From the NCBI GenBank assembly GCA_022564935.1, contig JADFKM010000008.1:1-45526 (forward strand): a stretch of DNA of 45,526 bases, given 5' to 3'. The stretch comes from Candidatus Dadabacteria bacterium. Its GTDB lineage: Bacteria > Desulfobacterota_D > UBA1144 > Nemesobacterales > JADFKM01. The notes below the pieces were generated by a model. The model had not been told where the DNA came from. It made no database searches and worked only from the letters and a program-made list of their open reading frames with translations. Of this stretch, positions 42,327 to 45,212 are shown piece after piece. How positions within the stretch are numbered: the stretch's first letter is position 1; each line of letters starts with the position of its first letter. The translations under genes and the position numbers were made by a program.

Positions 42327-43427
42327 TCAAACCCTCATCGGCATGATCACTGAAAGGAAAATCCCATTACCCACGGGCTTTATCGTAACGGGACTCTGCT
42401 CATCAGTGATGCCTACTTCCACCTCCTCCCCATCAGTTGCCTCGAGCACATCCCGCAAGTAAACGGAGTTAAAACCAACCTCAATATCGTCCCCCTCGTA
42501 GTTGATCTCTAAGGTTTCCGTTGCCTCACCGATCTCGGGTGAAACGCAGCTTAATGTGAGCGCTCCAATTTGTAGCTTTAGCTTCACGCTTCGTGTTCTC
42601 TCAGATGACAGCAGCGACACCCTCTTAAGAGCTCCAAGAAGCTCAACCCTCCCCACGGTAAAGCTGAATTTGGTGCTTTCGGGAATTACCTGAGTGTAAT
42701 CCGGAAACTCGGTGTCGATAAGGCGCGTCACTATCAACACTCCGTCACCCTCAGAGGTGAACTCAGATTTGGAGCAGCCGAGTCTAACCGCCTCGGATGA
42801 CCTAAGCAGTCTTTTAAGCTCCGAAACTCCCTTTTTAGGCACGAGAAAGCTCCACTCAAACGAAATATCTCCTACATCGGCCCTCTCGACAAGGGACAGC
42901 CTATGCCCGTCGGTAGCCACAAGCCTCAATGTTTGGTCGTCCATCTTCTCAAAATAAATACCCGAGAGACTCCTTCTCAACTCATCAGAAGTAACGGCAT
43001 AAATAGTCTTATCGATCATATCCCCAAGAACTTTGCTATCTACAGAGAACATGTCTTCGAGATGGGTCTCTTTAATTTCCGGAAAATCTTCACCGGGAAG
43101 ACCCGCTATCTTAAACACAGCGTTTAGAGAGCTTATCTCCACCCAGTTGTTGTTTATCTCCGTAAAGCTGACATTGCCGGGAGGGAGCTCTTTCACGATC
43201 TCAAATATCTTTCTTGCAGGAAGGGCCATCGACCCGGCGCTTTCCACACTTCCCAGGCATGAGGTTTGTATTGTAGTCTCTAGATCAGTTGCGGTGATCT
43301 TAACGGACTGCTCTTCCGTTTCGATCAGCACGTGGGAGAGCACGGGCATCGTGACTCTCCTCTCAGATATGCCTTGTATTAGACCCAGTTTTTCGGTAAG
43401 AAGTGAAGCATCGATTGAGAATTTCAT
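42327..43427 (-). CDS. dnaN: DNA polymerase III beta subunit (sliding clamp)
   Basis: 366 residues, full length. Three clamp domains are recognisable: the N-terminus MKFSIDASLLTEKLGLIQG, the middle VATDGHRLSLVERA and the C-terminus DVLEATDGEEVEVGIT ending in FLSVIMPMRV, the typical PMR-type end of beta clamps. It encircles DNA and gives processivity to the replicase. It lies downstream of dnaA with the 236-base candidate origin between them, the arrangement of many bacteria. AGGA lies nine bases before the ATG. Confidence 0.97.
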   Translation of the reverse strand: MKFSIDASLLTEKLGLIQGISERRVTMPVLSHVLIETEEQSVKITATDLETTIQTSCLGSVESAGSMALPARKIFEIVKELPPGNVSFTEINNNWVEISSLNAVFKIAGLPGEDFPEIKETHLEDMFSVDSKVLGDMIDKTIYAVTSDELRRSLSGIYFEKMDDQTLRLVATDGHRLSLVERADVGDISFEWSFLVPKKGVSELKRLLRSSEAVRLGCSKSEFTSEGDGVLIVTRLIDTEFPDYTQVIPESTKFSFTVGRVELLGALKRVSLLSSERTRSVKLKLQIGALTLSCVSPEIGEATETLEINYEGDDIEVGFNSVYLRDVLEATDGEEVEVGITDEQSPVTIKPVGNGIFLSVIMPMRV

Positions 43428-43474
43428 CTATTGTTAATCCTACGGTTAATGTAATGACATTATTATTTTAATAT

Positions 43475-43492
43475 TAGTAGTAGTAGTAGTAG
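43475..43492 (+). repeat. DnaA-trio: six TAG triplets
   Basis: TAG repeats six times with no interruption, flanked by GGGGC on the right and an AT-rich tract on the left. Known trios have three or more 3'-(G/A)AT-5' units; six perfect ones in the right polarity and place are unlikely by chance. Confidence 0.78.
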
Positions 43493-43519
43493 GGGCTGTG
43501 AAATTGTGAAAAACAGCCC
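43493..43519. other. Hairpin in the origin spacer
   Basis: GGGCTGT (43493-43499) pairs perfectly with ACAGCCC (43513-43519) across a 13-base loop that contains both weak DnaA-box-like sites. It might also end dnaA transcription, but on the minus strand no T tract follows, so a terminator is unlikely. Confidence 0.55.
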
Positions 43520-43663
43520 AAACGCCTAAAATCATGAAAGAAATGCAGTTGATAATGTGTGTAAATCTCACCTGAGGTTATCAACAATTCCACAGCCTAC
43601 CCCTCAATTTGGTTGTATCCACAATTACACCCACACCTCTATAAACAACATTTCAACCGTTCG

Positions 43664-45061
43664 TCAACCTCTTCTTTCCTCTACTCTTAACGTTATTAGG
43701 TCTATGGTTTTCTTAATCATCGGATCCTTCTCGAGCAAAGATTCAATTTTCTTTACGGCGTGTATGATGGTCGAGTGATCCTTTCCGCCGAATTTATCTC
43801 CGATCTCAGGGAAAGAAGCTCCGGTCAGCTTTCTGGAGAGATACATGGCTAGGTGTCTCGGCAGGGCTATTTGTTTGGTTTTATTTACGGATTTTAAATC
43901 TTGGGGCTTTAGGCCGAAATACTGTGAAACTTCCCTTTGTATTGCGCTGATGTTTATAACATGAGCGGGAGCTTCCTTTACAATGTTTTTAAGCACTCCT
44001 TTAGCAAGGTCTAAGGTTATTTTCGTGTGGAGGAGTTTTGCATAAGCGCTTATGTTTGTGAGGGTTCCCTCAAGCTCGCGAATGTTTGAAGTGATGTTCT
44101 CGGCGATATATAGAGCTACTTCCTTCGGAAGGACTATGCCCTCTTGCTCAGCCTTGTTTTCGAGTATTGCCACCTTGGTTTCGGTCTCCGGGGTCTGAAT
44201 GTCGGTTATTACTCCCCACTCGAATCTGGAGCGGAGCCTTTCCTCGGTCTGAGGCAGGTCTTTAGGCGTTTTGTCGCTTGTCAGCACGATCTGCTTCTTT
44301 AGTTCGTAAAGGGAATTAAACGTGTGAAAGAACTCTTCCTGTGTGCTTTCTTTTCCTGCAATGAACTGTATGTCGTCTATCATCAGCACATCGCATCCAA
44401 ACCTGTACCTGTTCCTAAGCTCTTCCATTTTACCCTTTTTAATGCTGTTGATAACCTGGTTTGTGAAGTGCTCCGCCGAAATGCAGCAAATCCTCGCCAT
44501 TGACGAGGGCTGGTTTGCAATGACATAGTTTCCAATGGCGTTTAGCAGGTGAGTTTTTCCAAGACCCACTCCTCCGTAGATAAACAGAGGGTTGTAGGCT
44601 TGGCCGGGATTCCTTGCAACCGCAATAGAAGCTGCGTGTGCGAACTGGTTACTCGGCCCTACCACAAATCGCTCAAAATTATAGTTGGGATTTATGATGC
44701 CTGTAAAAAGGGTTTCTTTAATCCGTAGTTTGTTGATGTTACCGATTTGAGTGGGGGGAGGGGTTGGGGTGTCTCTCTCGGAATTTACAAACACGTCGTA
44801 CTTTCTTCCCTGTACGTCGCTCAGGGTTTCGCGGATCATATCTATGTAATTATTTTTTATCCAATCGCGGTCGAACGAGCTCTTTGCGAGGAGAGTTACG
44901 CTGCTGTCGGTTTGGGATTGGAGTGAGAGTTTGTCGAACCAGAACTGCACTTGAGGATTTGCCTTTTTTTTGATTTCTTCTAGTACATCCGTCCATATAA
45001 CACTACTATGTTTTTCTTCCCTTTCATTGTCCTCATCTGGCGTAGAAAAATGCTCAGCCAT
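43664..45061 (-). CDS. dnaA: Chromosomal replication initiator protein DnaA
   Basis: 465 residues, full length with all four domains. Domain I (about 22-90) has VQFWFDKLSLQSQ; a short linker follows. AAA+ domain III has NYNFERFVVGPSNQFAHAA, Walker A GGVGLGKT (163-170), Walker B VLMIDDIQFIAGKE and the arginine-finger region ERLRSRFEWG. Domain IV has the DNA-binding signature GDKFGGKDHSTIIHAVKKIE. It binds TTATCCACA boxes and opens the origin. GGAGGT lies five bases from the ATG. Its leader carries DnaA boxes, so it probably controls its own synthesis. Confidence 0.98.
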   Translation of the reverse strand: MAEHFSTPDEDNEREEKHSSVIWTDVLEEIKKKANPQVQFWFDKLSLQSQTDSSVTLLAKSSFDRDWIKNNYIDMIRETLSDVQGRKYDVFVNSERDTPTPPPTQIGNINKLRIKETLFTGIINPNYNFERFVVGPSNQFAHAASIAVARNPGQAYNPLFIYGGVGLGKTHLLNAIGNYVIANQPSSMARICCISAEHFTNQVINSIKKGKMEELRNRYRFGCDVLMIDDIQFIAGKESTQEEFFHTFNSLYELKKQIVLTSDKTPKDLPQTEERLRSRFEWGVITDIQTPETETKVAILENKAEQEGIVLPKEVALYIAENITSNIRELEGTLTNISAYAKLLHTKITLDLAKGVLKNIVKEAPAHVINISAIQREVSQYFGLKPQDLKSVNKTKQIALPRHLAMYLSRKLTGASFPEIGDKFGGKDHSTIIHAVKKIESLLEKDPMIKKTIDLITLRVEERRG

Positions 45062-45180: not shown

Positions 45181-45212
45181 TTATCCACAATTTATCAACA
45201 AATTGTGGATAA
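45181..45212. promoter_or_regulatory. DnaA-box triplet in the dnaA leader
   Basis: TTATCCACA (45181-45189, perfect, plus), TTATCAACA (45192-45200, one mismatch, plus) and TGTGGATAA (45204-45212, perfect, minus) stand within 32 bases, about 120 bases above the dnaA start codon. This can serve autoregulation or the second half of a bipartite origin on both sides of dnaA. The rest of 45062-45526 is AT-rich without a gene; the promoter lies at 45306-45335. Confidence 0.85.

Follow-up and report, generated by a model that had tools for sequence, protein, structure and literature searches.

The window, i.e. the whole stretch of 45,526 nucleotides analysed here, contains neighbouring dnaA and dnaN genes and, in the spacer between them and in the leader upstream of dnaA, the following features:

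42327..43427, minus strand: dnaN, 366 aa
43428..43663, minus strand: dnaA-dnaN spacer, 236 bp, the unwinding half of the inferred origin and equivalent of Bacillus subtilis incC
43443..43474, no strand: AT-rich tract, 81% AT
43475..43492, minus strand: six perfect DnaA-trios, 5'-CTA-3' x6 (TAG x6 on the plus strand)
43493..43496, minus strand: GC block GCCC, adjoining the trio
43493..43519, minus strand: inverted repeat GGGCTGT/ACAGCCC around the tandem boxes (arms 43513-43519 and 43493-43499)
43496..43504, minus strand: second, weaker tandem DnaA-box position ATTTCACAG, by positional homology with relatives
43505..43513, minus strand: proximal DnaA box TTTTTCACA, 7/9 to TTATCCACA, 12 nt before the first trio
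43556..43564, minus strand: distal DnaA-box-like site TTACACACA, one mismatch to TTATNCACA
43578..43586, plus strand: distal DnaA box TTATCAACA, 8/9
43615..43623, plus strand: distal DnaA box GTATCCACA, 8/9
43664..45061, minus strand: dnaA, 465 aa
45177..45216, no strand: upstream box cluster, a perfect inverted repeat with 17-bp arms in the dnaA leader
45181-45189, plus strand, and 45204-45212, minus strand: upstream convergent TTATCCACA boxes
45192-45200, plus strand: upstream TTATCAACA box, between the two TTATCCACA boxes

On the minus strand, DnaA boxes are followed by a weak tandem pair, a GC spacer, (CTA)6 and the AT-rich tract, and the end of the dnaA-dnaN spacer reads GGGCTG-TTTTTCACA-ATTTCACAG-CCC-CTACTACTACTACTACTA-ATATTAAAATAATAATG from dnaA towards dnaN. 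The last three bases of the GC block (43493-43496) separate the second box from the trio. Positions 43475-43492 are 3'-GAT-5' x6 on the strand predicted to be captured, and ATA TTA directly after the six CTA trios brings the series to eight NTN triplets. The stronger boxes TTATCAACA and GTATCCACA lie farther from the trio than the 7/9 proximal box. The original prediction had proposed a complete DnaA-trio module with six perfect TAG triplets between dnaA and dnaN; the minus strand carries all its elements, and the predicted order and polarity of boxes, GC block, trio and AT tract are borne out when the spacer is read from dnaA to dnaN.

The published search rule for the Bacterial Unwinding System (BUS) asks for a box with at most two mismatches, a spacer of 0-16 bp and at least three consecutive 3'-NAN-5' trios, with a preference for GAT. 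In the window, TTTTTCACA has two mismatches and stands 12 nt from the first trio, six GAT are followed by two further NAN, and the polarity is that of box, spacer, 3'-GAT-5' trios and AT-rich DNA, as in Bacillus-type loci. With the incC BUS of B. subtilis (PMC6669920; PMC8287927; PMC10721633), the locus shares the dnaA-dnaN location, tandem boxes of which the better one is 12 nt from the first trio, a GC spacer, 3'-GAT-5' trios, an adjoining AT-rich tract and DnaA base-capture residues. In contrast with incC, its proximal box is 7/9, an inverted repeat flanks the boxes and the Asn196 equivalent of its DnaA is Gly. A wider comparison covered 62 named loci in which dnaA and dnaN are neighbours, drawn from the 80 best DnaA relatives. 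The geometry of box, spacer and trio is frequent in Bacillus, Paenibacillus, Clostridium and others, as exemplified by TTATCCACAAATCCACAGGCC-CTATTACTA in L052, and dnaA-dnaN spacers of these three genera have the 12-13 nt distance from box to trio and near-identical sequence. The module was predicted to be that of the B. subtilis DnaA-trio, and order, polarity and geometry agree with it, as do the relatives and the Bacillus-type loci.

The trio array is a singular feature of this genome. (CTA)6 is single-copy in the 1.99 Mb draft, in which we found no other (CTA)6 with zero or one mismatch besides the overlapping register. The sole further match, with two mismatches, is on another contig (C59) in apparently protein-coding sequence and was taken as chance rather than as a second module. 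In the window, 0.03 occurrences of (CTA)5 with at most two mismatches are expected, and the only matches are those of the 43475-43492 run. The 50-bp segment of lowest stability in the window covers the trio and AT tract; the 30-bp and 50-bp profiles are both extreme there, and the 50 bp from 43441 fall at roughly the lowest 0.01% of duplex stability. Most origins have a mixed series of trios, unlike the six uninterrupted GAT trios found here. The longest perfect CTA run is 1-3 in 61 of the 62 distant loci and five in the remaining one. Within the class, the other origins usually have 3-5 CTA trios broken by TTA or CTG, six uninterrupted CTA recurring in G022 and five in G013. The window's array, which had been put forward as a clear natural case, is a clean example at the top of the range observed among the compared origins.

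To which lineage the window belongs was settled through a relative of the same order, G041, which is identical over the 4 kb compared to JAPOSJ010000215.1, a contig of Candidatus Dadabacteria bacterium CAR2_bin_20. The window is therefore placed in Dadabacteria and not in the deltaproteobacterial-type lineage that had been guessed. Our class sample comprised 57 genomes, of which 48 dnaN-upstream regions were examined, the window's own included. The other class origins (G001-G056) have the same module, mostly with 12 nt from box to trio. The better box stands 12 nt before the first trio in families f1, f2, f4, f5 and several f8 genomes, and 9 nt before it in genus g14; a frequent form is TTATCCACA-AATTCACA-GGCC-CTACTACTATTACTACTA, with TTATCCACA in the place occupied by TTTTTCACA in the window. 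A BUS score gave p <= 0.01 against dinucleotide shuffles in 46/48 regions and exceeded all 1000 shuffles for the window's spacer; as the scoring scheme was composed after the sequences had been inspected, these values gauge strength and are not a blind test. Of the two regions that failed, one is cut by a contig end and the other is N-masked. Nearly every family of the class, and distant phyla too, show the same trio position, polarity and box distance. The comparison of relatives' dnaA-dnaN spacers, proposed at the outset as a check, shows that boxes, spacing and triplets are conserved.

The window's genome, in 104 contigs, is too fragmented for a direct GC-skew test, and its contig stops 465 bp upstream of dnaA. 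Skew was therefore sampled in two single-contig relatives, with 20 segments of 20 kb from each. In G034, it rises from -0.045 to +0.074 on crossing dnaN (1.108 Mb), with an interpolated cumulative minimum at 1.10 Mb; in G004, the minimum is at 0.18 Mb and dnaN at 0.199 Mb. Both interpolated minima fall within about 20 kb of dnaA-dnaN, so that the sign change that was to be looked for does occur at this locus in the relatives, consistent with a position of the spacer within the replication origin. The plus-strand skew of the window is mostly negative, consistent with replication leaving dnaA along the window.

As for the initiator itself, the window's DnaA aligns to the DnaA chain of PDB 8btg (E 3e-133) and has kept most AAA+ residues and most of those that bind trios in B. 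subtilis DnaA. In the latter, Asn187, Arg202, Glu228 and Glu183 are reported to capture trio bases, Ile190 and Ile193 to flank the third trio base and Asn196 to contact it (PMC10721633). Equivalents of Glu183, Asn187, Ile190, Ile193, Arg202 and Glu228 are retained, as is the arginine-finger motif RLRSRFEWG. The cognate DnaA thus has the residues of the initiator-specific motif, except that the Asn196 equivalent is Gly, which counts against assignment to the BUS. Gly at this position is also found in genus g6 of family f6, and most f2 and f4 relatives have Asn.

The proximal box, with only 7/9 matches to the consensus, is a second point against that assignment. Its weakness had been described as unusual; the box is indeed there at 43505-43513, but weak trio-proximal boxes are also present in f2 (g2, g16, g17), f3, f6 and f8, which makes it ordinary in the class. 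For B. subtilis, strand separation is reported to require just one member of the box pair, the upstream one (PMC8287927). We considered whether purer or more numerous trios make up for a weak box. The class shows no such relation (Spearman -0.04, p 0.81), and in the 62 diverse loci it is negative (-0.41 for CTA count); the idea was dropped. A shifted DnaA box specificity was rejected as well, as upstream of dnaA two perfect TTATCCACA boxes persist, and relatives with perfect proximal boxes have the same recognition motif, DHST.

We propose, with a probability of roughly 0.93, that the chromosome's oriC has its unwinding half in the dnaA-dnaN spacer, which works as a BUS in the uncultured dadabacterial host. 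DnaA would dock on the double-stranded boxes, both the distal ones and the proximal tandem pair, and the latter would guide it over the 3-nt GC spacer onto the strand 3'-GATGATGATGATGATGAT-5'. Successive ATP-DnaA subunits would each capture one trio, stretching the strand and opening the duplex. The opening would then extend into the AT-rich tract beside dnaN, where the helicase would be loaded.

Other explanations for parts of the spacer deserve consideration. Slippage generates trinucleotide runs, and (TAG)6 could be a chance or neutral microsatellite in an intergenic spacer that is not an origin. The congeners G019 and G022 (L019, L021) differ by exactly two CTA units, with an unchanged box distance, which suggests that trios are gained or lost by slippage. 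Nevertheless, slippage may account for the copy number but not for the presence of the run, which is unique in the genome, and the recurrence of trio position, polarity and box distance across the class and beyond makes a neutral origin very improbable. In neither congener are box and trio separated by the 3-nt GC spacer. It is similarly hard to believe that the spacer elements serve to control dnaN or dnaA transcription, as a DnaA-box promoter or an RNA attenuator, with replication starting elsewhere. The palindromic DnaA boxes in the leader upstream of dnaA would fit such a role, but the skew switches at dnaA-dnaN in two relatives, the trio fits a single-stranded DNA motif that a promoter does not need, and no T-run is found behind the spacer hairpin.

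That hairpin might itself be the essential element, acting as a structured single-strand or cruciform initiation site with a DnaA box in its loop, instead of a linear BUS. Its arms (43493-43499 and 43513-43519) form a perfect 7-bp stem with a 13-nt loop, folding as DNA at -6.3 kcal/mol (z -5.0), and stems of 6-7 bp with partly different letters surround the box pair in four f2 genomes (L003, L008, L011, L016). For the scan, the trio position was set by hand in L041 and L044, and L039 and L047 were left out. A stem of at least 6 bp was found in 0/62 distant loci, and none of 6-7 bp in f4, f5, most f2 genera (g2, g17, one of two g16 genomes) or Bacillus-type origins, which keep boxes and trios all the same. 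Furthermore, the register varies between genomes, and three g9 genomes have a stem mismatch. The hairpin is statistically real in the window and lineage-restricted, any function of it being putative; that it is essential seems highly unlikely to us. The prediction of a box in the loop holds in that the loop contains eight of the proximal box's nine bases, but the module also occurs without the hairpin. One might speculate, although we think it unlikely, that the lineage-specific inverted repeat of this lineage and some f2 members has a part in initiation, e.g. stabilising the strand once it is open or placing DnaA on weak boxes, and that the array of perfect trios serves initiation as well, with slippage tuning its copy number.

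The origin may be bipartite. DnaA-box-like 9-mers number 63 in the window, where 29.5 are expected; they cluster in the spacer and immediately upstream of dnaA. The upstream cluster, with three boxes at 45181-45212 across dnaA from the trio, is probably the second half of the origin, a dnaA autoregulatory site or both. B. subtilis and Helicobacter pylori likewise have bipartite origins with boxes on both sides of dnaA and the unwinding half on one side (PMC6669920). Several f2 and f4 genomes have similar clusters about -130 to -160 from dnaA, with shorter inverted repeats.

Of 2070 bacterial origins, 85% have been predicted to hold potential BUS sequences (PMC8287927), so that the window's origin is a good further case: a clean dadabacterial instance of a system already known, and not a new system. 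Our search of the literature found no paper on replication origins of Dadabacteria; the present data extend the BUS to them with strong conservation evidence. The natural variants, i.e. six perfect trios, sisters two trios apart, and weak versus strong proximal boxes, are suited to in vitro tests of how unwinding depends on trio number and box strength. A different layout exists in the class as well. In genus g6 of family f6 (L027-L038), tandem TTTCAC repeats replace the consensus box pair and end 4 nt short of the trio, and about 150-200 bp separate the module from dnaN, which it precedes.
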